Shown here piece after piece: positions 26,390 through 36,425 of a DNA stretch of 47,418 bases; within the stretch, counting starts at the first letter, position 1; the number at the start of each line of letters is the position of its first letter. Source of the DNA: Fusobacterium sp. Lineage in GTDB: Bacteria; Fusobacteriota; Fusobacteriia; Fusobacteriales; Fusobacteriaceae. The DNA is taken from positions 1 to 47,418 of the forward strand of contig NZ_JARHZE010000008.1 of assembly GCF_029258315.1 (NCBI RefSeq), given 5' to 3'. Under the pieces are notes generated by a model. That model was not told the origin of the DNA, did no database searches, and saw only the letters and a program-made list of their open reading frames with translations. Position numbers and translations under genes: made by a program.

Positions 26390-26433
26390 AATATTTTGAG
26401 ATTATAAAAATAAAAAAATAAATTTTAAAAATT

Positions 26434-26467
26434 GCTAGAGAAATTTTTTATTTCTTTAGCTTTTTTT
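26434..26467 (+). terminator. Terminator of the cbiQOMN operon
   Basis: GCTAGAGAAA pairs with TTTCTTTAGC (one G-U), followed by TTTTTTT. Confidence 0.85.
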
Positions 26468-26510
26468 ATTATTGATGAAATTATAATCTATTTTTTAGAA
26501 AATAATTTTA

Positions 26511-26553
26511 TAAAAAATGCACCCTCAATCTAATTTTAAAGATTTTAGGTGCA
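26511..26553 (-). terminator. Terminator of the two-component system operon
   Basis: On the minus strand TGCACC and AATCT pair with AGATT and GGTGCA around a short loop, followed by TTTTTT. It starts 9 bases after the histidine kinase stop and faces the cbi terminator. Confidence 0.8.
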
Positions 26554-26561
26554 AGATACTA

Positions 26562-27866
26562 TTAGTTAATTTTATTAGGAAGTTTTATAACAAACAGAGT
26601 ACCTGTTTTAGTTTCAGCAAGATAAATATCCCCTTCTAAGTATTCAACAATAGATTTACAGATAGAAAGTCCAAGTCCACTTCCCCCATTATACCCTTTT
26701 ATAAAAGGAGAGAATAAAAATTCTCTTTCTTTTTCAGGAACAGAAGTACCATCATTATAAAAATAAAGGTATAAATTTTCTCCAACTGTTTTAGTTGAAA
26801 TTGAGAAAAAACTTTCAGAATATTTTAATTGGTTAGTTATTAAATTTTCTACTAAAATTTTCACTTTTTCTTTATTCGTTTTGAAAGTTATATTTTTATC
26901 AATAGCTAAACTAAATTTTTTAGAACTTTCTTTCACAGCCAAAAGATCTAAAACTTTTAAAACAACCTCTGAAAAATTAAATTCCTCTATATTTTCATCA
27001 AAATTATTAGCAAACTCCAAATGGATAATAGTTATTAAGTCCTGAACTTTTTGTTTCATTCTATGAGTTTGGGTGATAATAGTTTCAAGAGTAGAATTTA
27101 AATCCCCCTTAGGATAAAGATTATCCATAGCAGATGTAGTGTAACCTTCTATTATCATAAGAGGTGTTTTCATCTCGTGGGATATATATTGTAAGGTTGT
27201 TTGTCTCAAAGCACTTTCTTTATCCAAAGTCTCTTTCATAATTTTTAAATCAGATATAAGGTGTTGAAACTCTAAATCTGTTGTCTTTATAGGTATATCT
27301 TTAACCTTTTTTCCCTCTGTTATTTTCTTAGTATACTCTCTAAGTTTTTTTATATCCATATAAAGCTCTTTACTTACAAAATAAGTATAGCAAATAGATA
27401 CACCTACTAAGAATAGTATAAATCCTAAAAACCAAAGGCAAATTTTTGGAAAAATATCAGCATAAATATTTTTTACAACAGAATATTCATAGATAGTTTC
27501 CCCATTTTTTAATTCTAACTCAATAGTATAAAGAAGATGTTTTCCATCTATTTTATCTTTATAAAGTTTGCTTATCTCTTTTTGAGATTTTGCATTATTT
27601 TCTATAATATCAGCAACTTTTTCTCCGTGAATACTCTGAACTACATCAATACTATTTGTAGTGACTCCTAGTATCCATTCATTTTCAATTCCAAGATCTT
27701 TTTTTTGATTAAGTGCATAATTAGATATAACTCTGTCCTCAAAAATTTTACTGAAATGCACAAATGACCAGTAATAAACAATAGAGATAGAAGTGATTGA
27801 TATAAAAACTATAAAAATAGTAGTAAAAAATATTATTCTAGTTCTGATATTTTTTAGTTTTTTCAT
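26562..27866 (-). CDS. Sensor histidine kinase of a two-component system
   Basis: The 434-residue membrane kinase has TM1 at about 11-32, an extracytoplasmic sensor of roughly 100 residues (no named fold seen), TM2 at about 141-163, a HAMP-like linker, a HisKA box with His230 (QYISHEMKTPLMI), N-box LVENLITNQLKYSE, and G-box GGSGLGLSICKSIV with FSPFIKG before it. All catalytic parts look intact. Its ATG overlaps the regulator stop (ATGA), so the two are co-translated. The ligand is unknown. The divergent carrier and opine-dehydrogenase genes suggest it senses their substrate, an inference from position. Confidence 0.92.
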   Translation of the reverse strand: MKKLKNIRTRIIFFTTIFIVFISITSISIVYYWSFVHFSKIFEDRVISNYALNQKKDLGIENEWILGVTTNSIDVVQSIHGEKVADIIENNAKSQKEISKLYKDKIDGKHLLYTIELELKNGETIYEYSVVKNIYADIFPKICLWFLGFILFLVGVSICYTYFVSKELYMDIKKLREYTKKITEGKKVKDIPIKTTDLEFQHLISDLKIMKETLDKESALRQTTLQYISHEMKTPLMIIEGYTTSAMDNLYPKGDLNSTLETIITQTHRMKQKVQDLITIIHLEFANNFDENIEEFNFSEVVLKVLDLLAVKESSKKFSLAIDKNITFKTNKEKVKILVENLITNQLKYSESFFSISTKTVGENLYLYFYNDGTSVPEKEREFLFSPFIKGYNGGSGLGLSICKSIVEYLEGDIYLAETKTGTLFVIKLPNKIN

Positions 27867-28525
27867 ATATTATACCTATATCCAAATCCATAGATAGTTT
27901 CAATTTTTAATTTTGGTAATTTTTTTCTAATATTTTTTATATAATTATCAACAGTTCTATCACTTCCAAAGTAATCATTGCCCCAAATTTCATTTAATAA
28001 AGTTTCTCTTGAAATAGCCTTACCTTTATTTTTAATAAAGAAATTTATAATTTCAAACTCCCTACTTGTAATTTCAATATAATTTTCACTTTCATTTATA
28101 GTTCTCTTTGTAAAGTTGATAGTGTATGGATCAATGAAAACAATCTCATCAGACTCAACAGTTCGATTTTGTTTTATTAGATTTTTAACTCTGTAAATCA
28201 ATTCAGTAGGTAAAAAAGGTTTGGAGATATAATCATCGCAACCGATTTCAAACCCAGTAACCCTGTCAAAACAATCCCCTTTAGCAGAGATTATTATTAC
28301 AAGGTTATCTTGAGACTTCTGTTTTAACATCTTCATAAGTTCTAGACCATTCCCATCAGGTAGCATAATATCTAAAATCCATAGTTTGAATTTTTTATCA
28401 ATTACATTTAAAGCTTCTTGCATATTTTTACAAGATGTAACATTATAGTTGGAGTTTTTAAGATAAAATGTCAACATTTGATTTAAATCTTTTTCATCTT
28501 CAACTAAGCAAATTTCTTCATTCAT
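27863..28525 (-). CDS. OmpR-family response regulator
   Basis: The receiver domain (about 1-115) has the acidic pair in LVEDEKD, phospho-acceptor Asp52 (LWILDIMLPDGNG) and the conserved Lys in DDYISKPF. The C-terminal winged helix (about 130-220) contains ITSREFEIINFFIKN, DRTVDNYIKNIRKKL and the ending IYGFGYRY, typical of OmpR/PhoB proteins. I place the start at ATG 28525, behind AAGGGAT, which gives 220 residues. The track's longer start adds a hydrophobic stretch before the receiver that is not expected. It probably controls its own operon and the divergent carrier operon. Confidence 0.93.
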   Translation of the reverse strand: MNEEICLVEDEKDLNQMLTFYLKNSNYNVTSCKNMQEALNVIDKKFKLWILDIMLPDGNGLELMKMLKQKSQDNLVIIISAKGDCFDRVTGFEIGCDDYISKPFLPTELIYRVKNLIKQNRTVESDEIVFIDPYTINFTKRTINESENYIEITSREFEIINFFIKNKGKAISRETLLNEIWGNDYFGSDRTVDNYIKNIRKKLPKLKIETIYGFGYRYNI

Positions 28526-28700
28526 AGTAAATCCCTTCTTGTTCAATTGTTTCTGTAAAAAAATTAAATATTGTATTAAAGTTCGATACAATTTTTATAC
28601 ATTCTAACACAAAAAAACTTTTTTTTCTAGATTGTTGTTATATTTTTTATACATTGATTTTGTATCATATAGACAAATCAAAGGGAGGGGTGAAGTGGAA
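28526..28700. promoter_or_regulatory. Divergent control region between the regulator and the YfcC-type carrier
   Basis: The region holds a perfect inverted repeat ATTGTAT-9-ATACAAT (28570-28592) and two copies of TTTTTATACATT (28592-28603 and 28646-28657), plus TGTATC elements on both strands. TATAAA/TAGAAT on the minus strand and TATCAT on the plus strand are possible -10 elements. Repeats of this kind are plausible sites for the response regulator. Exact promoters are not certain. Confidence 0.45.
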
Positions 28701-30167
28701 ATGAAGAAAAAAGGTTTTAAGATGCCGACGTCATTTACAATTTTATTTTTACTGACAGGTATCGTTGCATTATTAACCTTTGTAATTCCAGCAGGGCAGT
28801 ATGAATATGTAAATGGTACTCCAGTGGCAGGAACTTACAAAGTGGTAGCATCAAATACTCAAGGGCTATGGGATATTTTAATGGCACCAATAAAAGGTTT
28901 CAGTAGTGCGATAGATATTATTCTTTTTGTACTTGTACTTGGAGGGTGTTTAGGAGTTTTATTTGAAACAAGAGCGATAGATGCCTCTTTATCAAAAATA
29001 ACAGGTAGATTAAAAGGTAGAGAAAAAGTAATAATACCAGTGATAATGACCATATGTGCTTTCGGGGGGACTACATATGGAATGGCAGAAGAAACAATAG
29101 CTTTTTATCCAATAATTTTACCAGTTTTGTTAGCAGCTGGATATGATGTTGTAACGGGGATTATGGTAATATTCTTGGGAGCAGGAATCGGAATAGCAGG
29201 AGGGATAATAAATCCATTCTCAGTTGGAATCGGTTCTAACCTTGCAGGAATATCTTTGGGCGACGGAATTTTTGTTAGATTTGCTTTATTCTTAACATAT
29301 CTGATATTTGCAATAGCATTTACAATGAGATATGCAGAGAGAGTGAGAAAAGATCCTAAAAAATCAATAGTTTATGATATTAAGGATGTAACAGAAAGCA
29401 AATTTAGAAAAGACTCTTCAGAAGTTTTAGAGTTTGACTCTAAACGTAAAAGAGTAATGACAGTTTTTATAACAATGTTTGTGATAATGATAATCTCTAT
29501 TATTCCTTGGGCTGATAAATTTAATATTTATATCTTTGAAGATTTCCACAACCTTTTAATGAGTTCAAAAATCATCAAAGCACTTATAGGATTTAGTAAA
29601 CCTTTAGGAACTTGGCATTTTTCAGAGATGACAATGCTATTTATGGTAGGGGCTGCCTTAATAGGAAAACTTTACGGATATGAAGAAAAGAAAATAGTTA
29701 GTTTATTTGTAGCAGGAGCAAAAGATATTTTAAGCGTTGCGTTAATTCTAGGAGTAGCAAAAGGACTTTCAGTAGTTATGAAAAATGGATTGATAATAGA
29801 TACAATTCTTAATTATGGAGAGGGCGTACTTTTAAACTTAAAAGCAGAGATTTTCCCAGCAATAACATATCTTTTATATATACCAGTATCATTACTTATA
29901 CCATCATCATCAGGACTACAAACAGCAACAATTCCAATATTAGCACCTCTTGGGGATTTTATGGGAATAAGTAGAGAGTATGTAGTAATGGCTTGTCAAG
30001 CTGGAGCTGAAACAATGAATTTCATTTCTCCAACACAAGCAGTTTTAATGGGGGCTTTAACTTTAACAAATGTTCCATATGAAAGATGGCTAAAACATAT
30101 AATTCCATTCTTCGTAGGAATAATTGTAATAACAATCACAATATTAACAATAAGCAATATGCTATAA
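28701..30167 (+). CDS. YfcC/DcuC-family membrane transporter
   Basis: The protein (about 488 residues, roughly 12 membrane segments) belongs to the YfcC branch of the DcuC superfamily: FTILFLLTGIVALLTFVIPAG at the start, then FGGTTYGMAEETIAFYP and INPFSVGIGSNLAGIS, and near the end LIPSSSGLQTATIPILAPLGD. The family contains carriers and exchangers for dicarboxylates, amino acids and peptides; substrates are mostly unproven. The start is ATG 28701 after AGGGAGGGG (GTG 28695 is also possible); the track's earlier start lies upstream of this site. It forms an operon with the opine-dehydrogenase-like gene 61 bases downstream and is divergent from the two-component system. Confidence 0.85.
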   Translation: MKKKGFKMPTSFTILFLLTGIVALLTFVIPAGQYEYVNGTPVAGTYKVVASNTQGLWDILMAPIKGFSSAIDIILFVLVLGGCLGVLFETRAIDASLSKITGRLKGREKVIIPVIMTICAFGGTTYGMAEETIAFYPIILPVLLAAGYDVVTGIMVIFLGAGIGIAGGIINPFSVGIGSNLAGISLGDGIFVRFALFLTYLIFAIAFTMRYAERVRKDPKKSIVYDIKDVTESKFRKDSSEVLEFDSKRKRVMTVFITMFVIMIISIIPWADKFNIYIFEDFHNLLMSSKIIKALIGFSKPLGTWHFSEMTMLFMVGAALIGKLYGYEEKKIVSLFVAGAKDILSVALILGVAKGLSVVMKNGLIIDTILNYGEGVLLNLKAEIFPAITYLLYIPVSLLIPSSSGLQTATIPILAPLGDFMGISREYVVMACQAGAETMNFISPTQAVLMGALTLTNVPYERWLKHIIPFFVGIIVITITILTISNML

Positions 30168-30228
30168 ACTTAGGAAACAAGAATTACAAATAAAAATAAA
30201 AAAGATAATATAAAATCAGGAGGTTATT

Positions 30229-31344
30229 ATGAGTAGAGTAACAGTAATTGGAGCAGGAAACGGGGGAGTAACAGCAGCATATCATTTCACAAAATTAGGA
30301 CACGACGTATGTATATATGATGACCCTAAATTTGATAAACAAATAAAAGCTATACAAGAAGCTGGAGGAATAAAAGCTTTAAATGAATCACACGGATGTA
30401 ATATGTTATGTTCTGGATTTGCTAATATTCAACTAGCAACTACTGAAATAAAGAAAGCAATGGAATTTGCAGATATATTTGTTATGGTATGTCCTTCATT
30501 TGCACAAGAGAAATTATTTGAATCAATGATACCTTATTTAAAAGATGGACAAACAATATTATTAATGCCAGGAAACTATGGAAGTTTAGTTCTTTCAAAA
30601 ATGTTAAGAGAGAGCGACAAAAAAGATGTAAGAATAAACTTTGCTGATGCAATATCAATTCCTTGGGCTTGTAGAATAGTTACACCAGGAGTAATAACAA
30701 TAATGGGAATAAAAAAATTCCTTCCATTAAGTATAATGGCTAATACAGAAGATAAATCATTAATAGAGAAAAAATTAGCAGAGGTTTTACCAATACCAGT
30801 AGAGGTATTATCAAACCCAATAACTGCTGGACTAGAAAATATAAACTTCGGTGGACATCCACTATTAACAACTCTAAATATGGGATTACTAGAGAACTTC
30901 AATGGAAACTTCAACTATTATAGAGATTGTTGCAGTCCAGCTACATCTAGAGCAGCTGCCAAAATGGACAAGGAACGTTTAAGTGTTGGACAAGCTTTAG
31001 GATTATCTTTAAGAACAGAACTAGATGCAATGAATGCCCTTTATGGAACTGAGTATGAAACAGTATATGCTTTCAACAGAGATTCCACTACCCACGGAAA
31101 AATAAACAATTCCCCAAATAGTTCTAGCTCAAGATACATAACTGAAGATGTTGCTTACTTATTAGTTCCTTGCTATGAATTAGCTAAACTTTCAGGAATA
31201 GATGTACCAGTTGTTGAATCTTGTATAAAAATAGCATCAGCTTATAATGATGTTGACTATTTCAAAGAGGGACGTACTCTTGAAAAAATGGGATTTGCTA
31301 ATGTAAAACATGATGAATTTGTAGAAATGCTAAAAAGCTTTTAA
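30229..31344 (+). CDS. Opine dehydrogenase family protein (NAD/NADP octopine/nopaline dehydrogenase type)
   Basis: An N-terminal Rossmann fold starts VIGAGNGGVTAAYHF (GxGxxG). The C-terminal domain has FGGHPLLTTLNMGLLENF with His210 and RYITEDVAY with Asp307; these match in spacing the His/Asp pair of characterised opine dehydrogenases. Such enzymes reductively condense an amino acid with an alpha-keto acid (pyruvate, 2-oxoglutarate), or run in reverse to break opines down. At 371 residues it is of family size. The tight link to a YfcC-type carrier suggests that the opine, or the amino acid freed from it, crosses the membrane. Substrate and direction cannot be read from the sequence. RBS AGGAGG; a terminator follows. 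Confidence 0.85.
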   Translation: MSRVTVIGAGNGGVTAAYHFTKLGHDVCIYDDPKFDKQIKAIQEAGGIKALNESHGCNMLCSGFANIQLATTEIKKAMEFADIFVMVCPSFAQEKLFESMIPYLKDGQTILLMPGNYGSLVLSKMLRESDKKDVRINFADAISIPWACRIVTPGVITIMGIKKFLPLSIMANTEDKSLIEKKLAEVLPIPVEVLSNPITAGLENINFGGHPLLTTLNMGLLENFNGNFNYYRDCCSPATSRAAAKMDKERLSVGQALGLSLRTELDAMNALYGTEYETVYAFNRDSTTHGKINNSPNSSSSRYITEDVAYLLVPCYELAKLSGIDVPVVESCIKIASAYNDVDYFKEGRTLEKMGFANVKHDEFVEMLKSF

Positions 31345-31388
31345 TAAATTATAATAATAAAGTTTAACTTCCCGATAGTAATAATAAA

Positions 31389-31420
31389 AAGTGTCTTCAA
31401 ATTTTTGAGGGCGCTTTTTA
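31389..31420 (+). terminator. Terminator of the carrier/opine dehydrogenase operon
   Basis: AAGTGTCTTCAAA pairs with TTTGAGGGCGCTT using three G-U pairs, then TTT. It is about 45 bases after the stop. Confidence 0.75.
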
Positions 31421-31428
31421 TATTGCAT

Positions 31429-31454
31429 AAAAAAATAGGCAGTTTTAACTGCCC
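31429..31454 (-). terminator. Terminator of the secreted-protein/MORN operon
   Basis: On the minus strand GGGCAGT, loop TAAA, ACTGCC is followed by TATTTTTTT, beginning 2 bases after the stop of the last gene. Confidence 0.85.
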
Positions 31455-31455
31455 A

Positions 31456-31950
31456 TTAAAATATTAGTCTAGTTTTTAAAGATTTAGAAGCCTCATCTAA
31501 ACCAGATAAATCAAAATCAAGCCAACAAGAAGTGGAGTTTTCCCCTTCATAATTAATCCTTAAAGTTTTAGACCCTTTTAATAATTCCATTTCATTACTT
31601 ATAAAAATTAAATATATTTCATAAGGTTTATTTTTATTTACAAGTCCCGGGTATTCTACTTCATCCAAATATCCTATCTTTACATTTACTTTTATTTTTT
31701 CCAAAGAATCATCTTGATTATTTTCAATAGGAGATGGTTTGCATTTATCCACAAGTAAAGTCATAGAATAATAAGTAAGAGAACCCTTCAAACTATTCTT
31801 TGATATATAAATTTTTCCACTCTGTTTTGGTTCAGAATTAATAGATGAGGTAACTATTATATTTTTATTATTTTCATTTCTTTCAATTTCCCATTTAGCA
31901 AATGAAATGGAAGATAGTAATAAAAATATCAGTAGTAAGTATTTTTTCAT
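31456..31950 (-). CDS. Unrecognised exported protein, 164 residues
   Basis: I do not recognise a family. A clear signal peptide (about 1-18, MKKYLLLIFLLLSSISFAK) precedes a predicted beta-rich domain beginning WEIERNENNKNIIV. Two cysteines, in DKCKPS and SCWLDF, could form a disulfide in the periplasm. It is the last gene of the five-gene minus-strand operon, 17 bases after the previous gene, with RBS AAGGAG and a terminator just after the stop. The function is unknown; the context suggests an envelope role with its operon partners. Confidence 0.75.
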   Translation of the reverse strand: MKKYLLLIFLLLSSISFAKWEIERNENNKNIIVTSSINSEPKQSGKIYISKNSLKGSLTYYSMTLLVDKCKPSPIENNQDDSLEKIKVNVKIGYLDEVEYPGLVNKNKPYEIYLIFISNEMELLKGSKTLRINYEGENSTSCWLDFDLSGLDEASKSLKTRLIF

Positions 31951-31967
31951 TTTTTCTCCTTTTAAAT

Positions 31968-32642
31968 TTAAAAAAATGTTTCATCAGATATACTTATTTT
32001 GAAAGGTTTATCTTCTAAATCAAAATAAACAGTGATATTTTTTTCAAAATCATTGACACTTTTAACAATAGTATACTCTGTTGAGACATTAAATTCAGGG
32101 TGATTTCTATAATTTGTAGGGACGTGTATCCAGCCATCACTTTGAGGATAATCTTTTATTAAGTTCTCTTGTGATAAGCTACTGACCTCCTTATTGTTTA
32201 ATTTAATATTAGAATGTGATTTATCATAAAAAACAATAATAGAATTTACTATCCCCTCTTCTATCTTTTTATAATTTTCACTTTCTTCAGGTATATCAGG
32301 ATTTTTTATTGTAACTTCCAAAAGGATACCATTTTTTTCTAAAAGTCTGATGATAGATCCCCCTTTAATAATACTTTTACCATCTTTGGACAGAGACCAA
32401 TCAGTACGTATATCATAGTAGTCCTCTCCAACCAAAGGATTTAAAAAATACGGCTTTTTATCGGTGATATTCCAACCATCATTTAGAAATTTTTTTAGAG
32501 TGTTTGGAATAGTGAAAGATATATCATTAACTTGAATTTCAAATTTAGAATTATCCTTAGACATTTTATTTTCACCCTCTTTAGAATAGATTACAGAAAA
32601 AGATATTAAAAAACAGATTATAAGAATAAAAATTTTTTTCAT
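31968..32642 (-). CDS. Unrecognised exported protein, 224 residues
   Basis: No family recognised. The signal peptide (about 1-20, ending VIYSK) is followed by a short polar stretch and a soluble domain opening with FEIQVNDISFTIPNTLKKFL. The phrase DGWNITDKKPYFLNPLVG resembles small secreted or lipoprotein-like proteins that scale with a periodic beta structure, but this is only an impression. There is no lipobox cysteine. RBS GAGGTGAGG. It lies 36 bases from the upstream gene in the same operon. No transfer signs: base composition matches its neighbours. Confidence 0.72.
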   Translation of the reverse strand: MKKIFILIICFLISFSVIYSKEGENKMSKDNSKFEIQVNDISFTIPNTLKKFLNDGWNITDKKPYFLNPLVGEDYYDIRTDWSLSKDGKSIIKGGSIIRLLEKNGILLEVTIKNPDIPEESENYKKIEEGIVNSIIVFYDKSHSNIKLNNKEVSSLSQENLIKDYPQSDGWIHVPTNYRNHPEFNVSTEYTIVKSVNDFEKNITVYFDLEDKPFKISISDETFF

Positions 32643-32678
32643 CTATCCTCACCTCTATATTAAAATTTTATTTTCTAT

Positions 32679-33203
32679 CTATTTTATATCAATTACACTG
32701 TCATTTATTTGAATTTCACTTTCATATATTTTTATAATTTTTGGTACTCCATCAGCTGGAAAACAGAAAGTATTTTTAACTGCTGTTTTAGTTGGAATAT
32801 TAATATCATCAAATGGACCTAGAGCAAAAACTGCAAATCCCTCAGTGTCTAAAAGTTGAAGAGTTTTTTTCTCGTGAAGATTTGTTAGCCTTATCATTTT
32901 ATCTGTTTCATTTCTTAATCCAACTGTTACCTTGTATCCTGTTTCATCTTTTTTTACTGATAGAACTGAAACCTTTACATATTTTTCAAAAAGTTCTTTA
33001 TTGTAAATGATTAAAGCCTCATCTAAACTTTCTCCCTCTTTTCTTCCAGAATCTATACCATCTTTTACCCCTTTTAAGATATTTTTTCCTGTGGACACTG
33101 TTTCAGATACCACAGACGATACAGCTTTAGTTATAGGAGATTTCTCTTCTGAATAAGATAGAGCAGATAAAAGTAAACTTAAAACAAAAATAAATTTTTT
33201 CAT
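32679..33203 (-). CDS. Unrecognised exported protein, 174 residues
   Basis: The signal peptide (about 1-18, MKKFIFVLSLLLSALSYS) leads to an amphipathic segment (TKAVSSVVSETVSTGKNILKG) and a C-terminal beta-rich domain with VKVSVLSVKKDETGYKVTV and GLRNETDKMIRLTNL. The latter looks like the Ig/telokin-like folds (DUF4352 style) of secreted bacterial proteins, which is a weak match by eye. RBS GAGGTGA. It follows the MORN gene after 25 bases. The function is unknown. Confidence 0.72.
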   Translation of the reverse strand: MKKFIFVLSLLLSALSYSEEKSPITKAVSSVVSETVSTGKNILKGVKDGIDSGRKEGESLDEALIIYNKELFEKYVKVSVLSVKKDETGYKVTVGLRNETDKMIRLTNLHEKKTLQLLDTEGFAVFALGPFDDINIPTKTAVKNTFCFPADGVPKIIKIYESEIQINDSVIDIK

Positions 33204-33228
33204 TTTATCACCTCGTTATATAGAAATT

Positions 33229-34548
33229 TTAAGAATGATTTTTTATAGAAATAGTTACATCAAAGAACTTAGGTTTTTTATTATTTTCCTCATAGAAATC
33301 ATCTATTGTAGGGTAGATTATCTCTTTAAGATCTATTTTCATATTTTTATTAGTTTTTCTAAATTTTTCATAATCAGTAGTTTTTAAACTATGTTTTCCT
33401 TTTTTATTTTCTTTCATTTCAATCCATAGATAGTCATTTTTAAAAGGAACATTTATACTATAAACTCCATTTTTAAAATTAGTTTTAAATGAAATATCAA
33501 TATTTTCATCTATGGTTATTTTATCCTCAGATGTTGCAAGGTTTTCAGCATTTAAAAGATTCATATAGACAAGATTTGAAATTAAAGCAGTTTCTACCAT
33601 AGAGTTAAGAGCTTCACCCATAGTTTTTCCTAACTCCTCCATTCCTTTTTCAAGTTGTTTGTCTACTTCTTCATCTTCTGAGATCTCTTTTATACTAATC
33701 ATATCATCACTATTTTTATTATCTCTTTCTTCTTCTATCACCTGCCCATTTTTTATTTTTCCTTTAGATTGAAGAGTACCATCTTCATAGTAAACTTCAT
33801 AAATTCCCTCTTCGATATTATTTTTAAACTCTTTTCTTGTCCATAAATTTCCATTGTCATAGTAATCTTCTTTTATACCATTAAGAGCTCCATCTTTAAA
33901 ATTAGCTATATTTTTTAGGATTTTATTTTCAGAATAAAATTTCCAACAGCCGTTTTGTCCAGATTCATTAAAACTACCTTCTAGCTTTAAATTTCCATTA
34001 TCATAGTATTCTTTATATTCACCTATTGGATTACCTTTTTTATAAGTTGTTTTAGATAAAATTTTTCCATTAGGATAGTAAGCAATATATTCTCCCTCAA
34101 TAACCCCATTTTTAAAATTAGTTTTTAGTCTTAAATTTCCGTTATCATTATAATAGTGTTCTGTAACCCCATCTCTTTCACCATCTTTAAAATTGGTATT
34201 ATCAACTAAAACTCCCTCTTCTGTATATAGTTTAAAATTTCCATTTTGTTTTCCATCTTTCCAATGTCCAATCTCTTTTATCTGATTTTTAAAATATATA
34301 ACATTTAATCCATTAAGTTCACCATCTTTATATGAATAGATGTCCATATACTCATCATTTGTTTTTTTTAGTCTTCCAGTAAAAGGTTTTCCATCTTCAA
34401 CAGAAAGTTTACCATTTATATTTCTCACTTTTTCATTATCTTCAATAGCAGGAAGATATTTAAAAAATGAATATCTATTATAATAAATATAGGTTCCAGA
34501 AGTAACACAAAGAAATAATATAGTTCCTAAAATTATTTTTATTTTCAT
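33229..34548 (-). CDS. MORN-repeat (YwqK-like) envelope protein
   Basis: An N-terminal hydrophobic segment (MKIKIILGTILFLCVTSGTYIYY) acts as signal or anchor. About nine MORN-type repeats follow (roughly residues 45-275), recognisable by recurring FKDG..NG...YY.NGNL, for example HYYNDNGNLRLKTNFKNG. A charged linker and an unrecognised domain of about 140 residues end the protein. Databases often label such proteins YwqK family antitoxin, but no toxin partner is seen here, so I do not use that function. MORN repeats elsewhere bind lipid or protein. I took ATG 34548, behind GGAGG, rather than the track's TTG at 34560, which precedes that site. Confidence 0.82.
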   Translation of the reverse strand: MKIKIILGTILFLCVTSGTYIYYNRYSFFKYLPAIEDNEKVRNINGKLSVEDGKPFTGRLKKTNDEYMDIYSYKDGELNGLNVIYFKNQIKEIGHWKDGKQNGNFKLYTEEGVLVDNTNFKDGERDGVTEHYYNDNGNLRLKTNFKNGVIEGEYIAYYPNGKILSKTTYKKGNPIGEYKEYYDNGNLKLEGSFNESGQNGCWKFYSENKILKNIANFKDGALNGIKEDYYDNGNLWTRKEFKNNIEEGIYEVYYEDGTLQSKGKIKNGQVIEEERDNKNSDDMISIKEISEDEEVDKQLEKGMEELGKTMGEALNSMVETALISNLVYMNLLNAENLATSEDKITIDENIDISFKTNFKNGVYSINVPFKNDYLWIEMKENKKGKHSLKTTDYEKFRKTNKNMKIDLKEIIYPTIDDFYEENNKKPKFFDVTISIKNHS

Positions 34549-34578
34549 ATTTTCCTCCAATCAATTTTATAAAGAGTT

Positions 34579-35052
34579 TTAAAATATTATTTTGATAGCT
34601 TTGGAAAGAAAGGATATTACTAAAAATATACTTCCTATTATTATTAAAATATATTCTCTTCCTTTATTAGCTCCATCATCAGCTATCCAAAATTCTTTAG
34701 GATTATTTTTATTTACAACTAATTTATACTCTTTTCCTATTTCATATTCAATAAAATTTATATTTTTTAATTTTTTTATAAATTTTTTAGTTTTTTCTGG
34801 AACTTCATCAGGATTTATATTTTTTAACTCATCTATTTTTTCCTTGTTTGTGTACTTTCCTCTGTACTCTTCATTATAAGTGACTCCATTAACTACATAT
34901 CTAAATATAGGATAATGTCTATTTCTAGATGGGGAATAATAAAATTCAGTAAGAGTTCCCTTTGTATAAAAATTTTCTTTCATAGTTTTATTATATTGGT
35001 AAAGATTAAAACATCCTATAAAAATAAGTATAATTCCAATTATTCTTAGCAT
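34579..35052 (-). CDS. DUF3592-like membrane protein
   Basis: The protein is 157 residues with one hydrophobic helix at each end (about 1-20 and 135-155) enclosing an extracytoplasmic beta domain. YPIFRYVVNGVTYNEEYRG and KEYKLVVNKNNPKEFWI match the DUF3592 pattern of small membrane proteins of unknown role. It is the first gene of the five-gene minus-strand operon. RBS GAGGTGATAG. Upstream lies a strong hairpin rather than an evident promoter. Confidence 0.78.
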   Translation of the reverse strand: MLRIIGIILIFIGCFNLYQYNKTMKENFYTKGTLTEFYYSPSRNRHYPIFRYVVNGVTYNEEYRGKYTNKEKIDELKNINPDEVPEKTKKFIKKLKNINFIEYEIGKEYKLVVNKNNPKEFWIADDGANKGREYILIIIGSIFLVISFLSKAIKIIF

Positions 35053-35066
35053 TCTATCACCTCAAA

Positions 35067-35123
35067 TAAAAAAATGCTCATAACAAAATTATTTATAGGA
35101 ATAAATAATTAAGTCATAAGCAT
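35067..35123 (-). terminator. Strong terminator/attenuator-shaped hairpin before the DUF3592-MORN operon
   Basis: On the minus strand ATGCTTATGAC pairs with GTTATGAGCAT and AATTATTTAT with ATAAATAATT around loop TCCT (about 21 bp), followed by TTTTTTT. It could end the M20 amidohydrolase transcript. It ends only about 15 bases before the DUF3592 start codon, so that gene must be read through it or started within it. Confidence 0.75.
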
Positions 35124-35189
35124 CATCTCCTTAAATTAAGTTAAAGAAGTATTTTAAATATAAAGTCAAATATTTAATTTTGATATGTA

Positions 35190-35222
35190 AATATTTTTTA
35201 TAATTATACTATAAAAAATATT
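35190..35222. repeat. AT-only perfect inverted repeat
   Basis: AATATTTTTTATA and TATAAAAAATATT (13 bp) are separated by 7 bases, just after the M20 stop. It may be a weak bidirectional hairpin or the 3' end of the M20 message. Confidence 0.5.
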
Positions 35223-35234
35223 AAAAATCAACTG

Positions 35235-36425
35235 TTACTTACTAGCTTTTAGATGTTCATAGGCATTGAAAATATTTAAGATTTGCATTTTTATTCCAAC
35301 AATAATAGAACTTTCATCAACCATAAATTTATCATTATGTAGTGGCTCAATAGCTCCAATATCTTCGTTTCTAATTCCTAAAAAGAAAAAAGCTCCGGGA
35401 ACTTTTTCTAAATAATAAGCAAAATCTTCGGCTCCCATTTCAGAATATTTTCTAGTGATAATTTTTTCTTTACCGAGTAACTCTATACCACTTTTTTTCA
35501 CAATGTCAACATACTCTTCGTGATTAATCAAAGCATTGTAACTATCTTTAAATAATACTTCAGCTTTTGCTCCATATCCTTTACATACAAATTCACTCAT
35601 ATCTTTAACTCTTTCTTTAATAAAAGTTCTCATCTCTTGAGAAAGAGTACGAATGATACCAGTTAAAGAAACTTCATCAGCTACAATATTTTCTTTTGTT
35701 CCTCCGTTAATAGTTCCAAAAGTTATAACTGCTGAATCTCTTGCATCAGTATTTCTTGAGATAATAGATTGGATAGAACTTATAACTTGGCTAGCAGTTA
35801 CAATGGCATCAATTCCATTATGTGGGAAGGCTCCGTGAGTGCTTTTTCCAAGAATATTTATTTTGAAAGTTGTTGAGGCAGCAAACATTGGTCCATATTT
35901 AATTCCAATCTCTCCAGAATTTATAAAAGGATCTACATGGATACCAAAAATAGCATCTACTCCTTCAAGAGCCCCATCTTCTATCATAGGTAAAGCTCCC
36001 CCAGTAGTTTCCTCAGCTGGTTGGAATATAAGTCTCACATTGCAAGGCAAATCATCTTTTATTTCAGAGAGAATTTTAGCAACTCCAAGAAGAATAGAAC
36101 AATGGACATCATGTCCACAGGCGTGCATCTTTCCTTCGTGTTGAGATTTATACGGGCAGTCAGAAGTTTCTAAAATAGGAAGAGCATCAATATCAGCTCT
36201 TAAGGCTATTGTTATAGAATTATCTTTTCCATAAAAATTTGCTATAATTCCACTTTTTCCTATATTTGTCTTGTAATTGACACCAAGTTCAGTTAAAATA
36301 GAAGTGATGTATTTTGTAGTTTCAGGTAAATCAAAATCAAGTTCAGGGATTTTATGCAATTCCCTTCTGTTATTTATAAACCAAGTATTATATTTATCAA
36401 TATTTTCTAAAATATTATTTATCAT
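35235..36425 (-). CDS. M20 family amidohydrolase (candidate N-acetyl-diaminopimelate deacetylase)
   Basis: This metal-dependent amidohydrolase has metal ligands MHACGHDVH (Cys103, His105), the Glu pair of PAEETTGGA (138/139) and His163 in GIHVDP. The dimerisation domain is about 180-295 (STHGAFPHNGIDA). At 396 residues it fits the M20D aminoacylase/hippurate-hydrolase/N-acetyl-DAP-deacetylase group. It is divergent from the lysine-riboswitch operon, which contains the acetylase-branch enzymes dapH and a PatA-type aminotransferase but no deacetylase. It may therefore complete that pathway. A general N-acyl-amino-acid hydrolase, perhaps linked to the nearby opine genes, is the alternative. RBS AGGAGG. 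Confidence 0.85.
   Translation of the reverse strand: MINNILENIDKYNTWFINNRRELHKIPELDFDLPETTKYITSILTELGVNYKTNIGKSGIIANFYGKDNSITIALRADIDALPILETSDCPYKSQHEGKMHACGHDVHCSILLGVAKILSEIKDDLPCNVRLIFQPAEETTGGALPMIEDGALEGVDAIFGIHVDPFINSGEIGIKYGPMFAASTTFKINILGKSTHGAFPHNGIDAIVTASQVISSIQSIISRNTDARDSAVITFGTINGGTKENIVADEVSLTGIIRTLSQEMRTFIKERVKDMSEFVCKGYGAKAEVLFKDSYNALINHEEYVDIVKKSGIELLGKEKIITRKYSEMGAEDFAYYLEKVPGAFFFLGIRNEDIGAIEPLHNDKFMVDESSIIVGIKMQILNIFNAYEHLKASK

Follow-up and report, generated by a model that had tools for sequence, protein, structure and literature searches.

What does a two-component system (TCS) control when the operon that it faces encodes a membrane carrier and an opine dehydrogenase (ODH)? 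The locus that raises this question lies in a 47,418-nucleotide stretch of DNA from Fusobacterium sp. (NCBI RefSeq assembly GCF_029258315.1, contig NZ_JARHZE010000008.1; hereafter, the window), where the genes for a sensor histidine kinase and an OmpR-type response regulator are divergent from those for a YfcC/DcuC-family carrier and an Octopine_DH-family dehydrogenase. We judge it probable, although well short of certain, that the four genes form an accessory, horizontally spreading, two-component-controlled catabolic module for the uptake and oxidative splitting of an opine, a compound in which a nitrogen atom links two small acids.

The four-gene locus

The kinase/regulator pair (26562–28525, minus strand) faces the two-gene operon for the carrier and the dehydrogenase; the presence, places and orientations of the four genes are as first given in a preliminary description of this DNA. 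The features of the locus are:

26562–27866, minus strand: sensor histidine kinase, 434 aa, HisKA and HATPase_c domains; orthologs in genomes G702, G696 and G050
Kinase segments, in residues: transmembrane helix 1, ~11–29; extracytoplasmic domain, ~34–141; transmembrane helix 2, ~142–160; then HisKA and HATPase_c
27863–28525, minus strand: OmpR/PhoB-type response regulator, 220 aa, receiver and Trans_reg_C domains; 4-bp overlap with the kinase gene
28526–28694, no strand: divergent promoter region of the regulator and carrier genes, from inspection of the sequence
28586–28613, plus strand: candidate regulator site, direct repeats ATACAATT / ATACATTC / ACACAA in 10–11 bp steps
28695–30167, plus strand: YfcC/DcuC-family (PF03606) secondary carrier with many transmembrane helices; probable start GTG 28695
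30229–31344, plus strand: Octopine_DH-family NAD(P)-dependent dehydrogenase, 371 aa; GAGNGG motif, H210, R302 and D307

The domains of all four proteins exceed the curated Pfam cut-offs. The kinase (HisKA and HATPase_c, with two transmembrane helices flanking a domain of ~108 residues) and the adjacent regulator (receiver and Trans_reg_C) have the domains of an OmpR-type TCS. We corrected the start of the regulator to ATG 28525. For the carrier, the most likely start codon is GTG 28695, which follows a GGAGG at a distance of a few nucleotides; this also corrects an earlier gene model. The carrier and dehydrogenase genes are read as an operon because the gap between them is 61 bp and the next gene, which ends at 31456, is oppositely oriented.

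The four genes recur together

The set of regulator, kinase, ODH and YfcC genes is also found in two clostridial genomes, G702 (locus L074) and G696 (locus L075). In L074 all four genes are on one strand with the ODH gene before YfcC, in L075 the TCS is convergent with YfcC-ODH, and in the window it is divergent, that is, there are three arrangements in all. The window kinase matches the ODH-linked kinases over its full length (E 1e-100 in G702, 1e-89 in G696), whereas the next-best kinases in these genomes (E 1e-18 and 3e-20, respectively) match the kinase part only; the orthologs in G702, G696 and G050 are full-length and include the sensor domain (EWILGVT.NSI..V..[IV]HG). The ODH-linked kinases are therefore orthologs by a wide margin. 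This orthology is the strongest evidence that the TCS forms a unit with the carrier-dehydrogenase pair, and we regard the four genes as more than a chance neighborhood. The regulator is 52% identical to that of L074, 47% to that of L075 (a partial model as called, the frame of which continues upstream from a TTG) and 64% to that of locus L057 in genome G050. In L057 (5823–11371), the TCS lies before two adjacent genes, one for a fusion of acyl-CoA dehydrogenase, ETF alpha and rubredoxin (639 aa) and the other for a flavorubredoxin-like protein.

A pair of AYAYAWT repeats at a 10–11 bp step is located upstream of the ODH operon in the window, L074 and L075. Such a pair occurs in 0.4%, 0.17% and 0.87% of dinucleotide shuffles of the respective regions, values that are optimistic since the pattern was chosen by eye, and in 2 of 29 other intergenic regions. 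The spacing would suit an OmpR-type regulator; we regard this as a lead and not a test.

The dehydrogenase represents an uncharacterized subfamily

The dehydrogenase scores 130.8 bits against PF02317 (Octopine_DH; cut-off 30) and is the sole match to this family in the host genome, which is 86% complete. Its N-terminal domain is a Rossmann domain. The nearest solved relative is N-(1-D-carboxyethyl)-L-norvaline dehydrogenase (CENDH) from Arthrobacter sp. 1C (1bg6; phmmer E 3e-41 over nearly the full length, ~30% identity), followed by scallop (Pecten maximus) octopine dehydrogenase (3c7a; E 2e-9). The Rossmann motif, His210 and Asp307, all named in the preliminary description, hold up in the 1bg6 alignment: His210 and Asp307 correspond to CENDH His202 and Asp297, and Arg302 corresponds to Arg292. 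The three residues also align with catalytic residues of the scallop enzyme. Thus, the enzyme has the NAD(P)-binding motif, the catalytic His-Asp pair and the Arg sensor, and G8, G10, N11, H210, R302 and D307 are invariant in 32 dehydrogenase sequences that include CENDH. An AlphaFold model built from three sequences has a mean pLDDT of 43.5.

In a tree of these 32 sequences, which also include the Ti-plasmid octopine and vitopine synthases, 18 sequences with that of the window form one clade (100/99) on a stem of 1.0 changes per site; long branches outside the clade make its deeper placement unsure. This subfamily, 18 loci in three phyla, is apart from CENDH and the Ti-plasmid synthases, and a motif specific to it, ENINFGGHPL, surrounds the catalytic His and is absent from the characterized enzymes with which it was compared. 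The subfamily appears to be uncharacterized, and a close solved structure was not found.

The distribution of the subfamily is sparse and patchy. An initial scan of genome contigs with the single dehydrogenase sequence gave two relatives. In the host phylum (98 species genomes sampled), the subfamily occurs in four other genomes only (G010, G067, G068 and G073; 48–51% identity), and more distant relatives (24–31%) are present in a few other genomes. Close relatives were found in 2/392 genomes sampled from the order of the Halomonas match, in 11/395 from the order of the clostridial match and in 3/71 from the family of G702 and G696. The window dehydrogenase nests among clostridial sequences (97/93), where it groups with L076–L078, and is outside the fusobacterial arginine-operon group (99/99), a position that points to horizontal transfer.

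Partners of the dehydrogenase and of the carrier

A transporter or binding-protein gene stands alongside the dehydrogenase gene in 15 of the 17 testable loci of the subfamily (L080 is cut by a contig end and was excluded). The transporters are of the YfcC type, the YjiH/Gate type or the polar amino-acid ABC type with a solute-binding protein, the last of which is a system for import. The partners are:

YfcC-family carrier: window, L074, L075, L076, L077 and L008 (Halomonas)
YjiH/Gate-type transporter, mostly with a PrdR-like sigma-54 regulator: L007, L079, L081, L082 and L073
Arginine-supply operon: L035–L038 (G067, G068, G073 and G010)

In L076 and L077, the dehydrogenase gene is followed by YfcC, an ornithine-cyclodeaminase-family gene (which passes no equivalog cut-off in a family that holds other activities), a sigma-54 regulator and an aminotransferase. 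L035–L038 contain an ABC (ATP-binding cassette) permease and ATPase, a Gate transporter, an M20 hydrolase, solute-binding proteins, argH and argG, although not every gene was identified in each locus and L037 is short; the operon in G067 also contains a gene for ornithine carbamoyltransferase. In all four genomes, the ODH gene lies 3 bp past a binding-protein gene and directly before argH, with which it overlaps by 14 bp as called in L036. An enzyme that consumes arginine or ornithine would make little sense inside operons that supply arginine. Genes for M20, PepV or beta-aspartyl peptidases are near several of the dehydrogenase homologs.

The carrier matches PF03606 (DcuC) with an E-value of 3e-99 (333 bits), in agreement with its first description as a YfcC/DcuC-family protein. 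Its best NCBIfam match, YfcC (NF008611), scores 246.7 bits, below the equivalog cut-off of 500; judged from these scores, the protein is a DcuC-family carrier but not a YfcC in the strict sense. It is 60% identical to the ODH-adjacent carrier of L075. The closest fusobacterial carriers (~50%) adjoin isoaspartyl dipeptidase-like genes in several genomes of group g12 (the one dipeptidase scored reaches 511 bits, cut-off 331), and M20 dipeptidases adjoin related carriers in G032 and G064. A pattern common to the related carriers, that is, a carrier beside an enzyme that splits a dipeptide-like acid, favors import followed by splitting; because opines resemble dipeptides without having a peptide bond, their chemistry implies that an oxidative splitter would be needed where a peptidase cannot cut. 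The ODH-linked carriers are not one clade; distinct YfcC lineages are paired with dehydrogenases of the subfamily, so the pairing has probably been made more than once.

The YfcC-dipeptidase pairs of the Fusobacteriaceae (L039, L040, L041, L053, L058 and L059) are themselves a candidate module for the import and use of isoaspartyl dipeptides. In L040, the pair stands beside genes for malic enzyme, aspartase and a racemase.

The module occupies a variable spot

The preliminary description had made its reading depend on conservation of the carrier-dehydrogenase pair in related genomes. Among congeners this expectation failed: no close copy of the dehydrogenase was found in any of the six congeneric genomes searched, and the whole module is missing there. 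Where the subfamily occurs it was borne out, in that the enzyme is repeatedly partnered by a carrier or a TCS in different phyla. The flanks are collinear in the three congeners with a readable site (G001, G003 and G005): the left flank carries cobalt-type transport genes as far as 26389, and the right flank holds the genes for an M20 amidohydrolase (35235) and aspartate kinase (36899). The intervening 26390–35234 is a spot for variable cargo, the contents of which differ among congeners: an HpaB-type hydroxylase gene in G003, a gene of the same length at that place in G005, and a set comprising a GntR regulator, a nucleoside transporter and a phosphorylase in G001. Since it is absent from congeners with collinear flanks, the module is accessory DNA.

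Two further proposals were rejected. The M20 amidohydrolase at 35235 is not part of the module, as congeners without the module retain this gene. A single transfer of the intact module is unsupported, since the closest affinities differ among its parts: L076–L078 for the dehydrogenase, L075 for the carrier and G050 for the kinase.

Five minus-strand genes, mostly of unknown function, occupy 31456–35052 in the same spot; one of them (33229–34548) contains MORN-repeat-variant units.

Proposed function and alternatives

A function has to accommodate what was observed, namely the gene content, the domains and catalytic residues, the repeated co-occurrence of the four genes and the kinds of gene that accompany them; from these observations we infer the direction of the reaction, the substrate of the carrier, the ligand of the kinase and the regulation. 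The extracytoplasmic domain of the kinase would sense an external signal, probably the opine itself, and the regulator would then activate the divergent operon. The YfcC-family carrier would import the opine, that is, an N-(1-carboxyalkyl) amino acid, and the dehydrogenase would convert opine + NAD(P)+ + H2O to amino acid + 2-keto acid + NAD(P)H; the products may feed amino-acid fermentation. Gene context suggests that the amino acid is linked to arginine or ornithine.

Several findings weigh against this proposal. The chemistry of the dehydrogenase is reversible, and its direction is predicted from gene context. The arginine context stems from another subclade than that of the window enzyme. 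In the scallop enzyme, Glu142 and Trp278 hold the guanidinium group of arginine (PMC2924402); these align with Ile142 and Ala267 in the window enzyme, which thus lacks the guanidinium-holding residues of an arginine-specific octopine dehydrogenase proper, and a residue-level case for octopine failed, although domain II aligns weakly with the scallop enzyme and arginine may be bound in another way by other enzymes that use it. An adjacent transporter gene is lacking in L078 (with PepV alongside) and L083 (with a divergent LysR gene). Finally, the closest TCS of all (54% identity for the kinase and 64% for the regulator) is that of G050, where it faces a gene read as feoA from its first 34 residues, and this genome has no ODH match and no carrier match at the cut-off used; the TCS therefore need not be dedicated to opines.

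The preliminary description had proposed, as an alternative to import and splitting, a fermentation sink in which an opine is made from pyruvate and an amino acid, so that NADH is reoxidized, and is then exported. In the form considered here, a different keto acid could take the place of pyruvate, and export through the carrier might be coupled to the entry of an amino acid. Octopine formation in the scallop does regenerate NAD+ (PMC2924402), NCBIfam labels YfcC a putative antiporter, and the host has a butyryl-CoA:acetate CoA-transferase, as fermenters do. However, related dehydrogenases accompany ABC importers and arginine-supply genes, related carriers accompany dipeptidases, and a TCS with a patchy distribution fits an occasional nutrient better than central redox balance, so we consider a sink unlikely. 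The import-type partners, arginine-supply operons and inducer-type regulators, together with the recurrence of the module, favor splitting over synthesis; synthesis and export gained no such positive support.

It is also rather improbable that the compound imported and split is not a classical opine but, for example, an N-carboxymethyl amino acid or some other molecule with an imino link, or else a peptide-like precursor that an M20 or PepV enzyme would have to hydrolyze first. The peptidase genes near several homologs, the loss of the scallop arginine-binding residues and the subfamily-specific ENINFGGHPL motif would be accommodated by such a substrate, but the His-Arg-Asp set and Rossmann motif are fully conserved, as opine chemistry expects. 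That the genes are chance neighbors and the TCS regulates something else is very improbable: the spot between 26389 and 35235 does carry unrelated cargo in congeners, and the G050 TCS faces feoA, but two clostridial genomes, each with an arrangement of its own, have the same TCS ortholog next to their ODH and YfcC genes. Opine-type metallophore biosynthesis, already thought unlikely at the outset, is the least probable explanation for this enzyme. The fold is common to staphylopine-type enzymes, and zincophore clusters have been reported in fusobacteria (PMC7438024), but the dehydrogenase scores 18.9 bits against NCBIfam staphylopine_DH (cut-off 675), no nicotianamine-synthase-like gene is among the identified neighbors in the window or the other loci, and the partners are nutrient carriers.

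Beyond the uptake and oxidative splitting of an opine by the window module, the subfamily may mark widespread but patchy opine nutrition in anaerobes and halophiles that draws on unrelated importers (YfcC, YjiH/Gate and ABC); modules of the window type would, in addition, have a two-component sensor dedicated to opines. We offer this tentatively, as possible rather than probable. To our knowledge, such a sensor would be the first of its kind.

Relation to known systems

We found no description of this TCS-carrier-dehydrogenase gene set in the literature. The closest precedent is CENDH, which has the same domains and His/Arg/Asp set; its host, Arthrobacter sp. 1C, can grow with a carboxyethyl amino acid as sole carbon source and has this NAD+-dependent enzyme of the same fold (PMC4575208). 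CENDH differs in its ~30% identity and its location in another part of the tree, whereas the window subfamily has its own catalytic-His motif and long stem. The scallop enzyme belongs to the same fold family and shares a P-W-A-C-R-I motif but is remote. The occ operons of Ti plasmids contain an opine permease and ocd, encoding ornithine cyclodeaminase (PMC4575208); the occ/noc regions of Agrobacterium combine an importer with an opine-splitting enzyme, a pairing that the gene types of the module would fit, and the ornithine-cyclodeaminase-family gene has its match in L076 and L077. In the Ti systems, these roles fall to ABC permeases and Oox/Nox flavoenzymes (PMC4575208), whereas the genes of the window predict transport by a secondary carrier, splitting by an enzyme of the NAD(P) type and control by a TCS. 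The YfcC-isoaspartyl dipeptidase pairs of the Fusobacteriaceae resemble the module in having a carrier ~50% identical to that of the window beside a splitting enzyme, but they split hydrolytically and neither a TCS nor a dehydrogenase was seen alongside. Opine catabolism is known; its variant here, with an uncharacterized enzyme subfamily, is probably new.

If the proposal is true, anaerobes use opines as ordinary nutrients, in an inducible manner and away from plant tumors, and split them with NAD(P)-type dehydrogenases of this subfamily. The carrier would then offer a starting point for the study of a YfcC-type opine importer, and the kinase one for that of an opine-sensing TCS; where opines come from in these habitats would become a testable question.

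Dehydrogenase-like genes outside the subfamily

A search of plasmids gave dehydrogenase matches of at most 31% identity, and the five retrieved are all outside the subfamily. On an Arthrobacter plasmid (L085, 3357–6095), the odh gene adjoins a p-aminobenzoyl-glutamate-type transporter and a GntR regulator, that is, pairing with a transporter extends beyond the subfamily. A second opine-dehydrogenase-like group (L045, L047 and L048; ~28% identity to the window enzyme), which includes the congener G001, has a divergent LysR-like gene and a downstream gene of 176–192 aa. In L052 (7436–10182), the gene directly after an opine-dehydrogenase-like gene encodes 542 aa and has a B12-binding domain that scores just under the Pfam cut-off.

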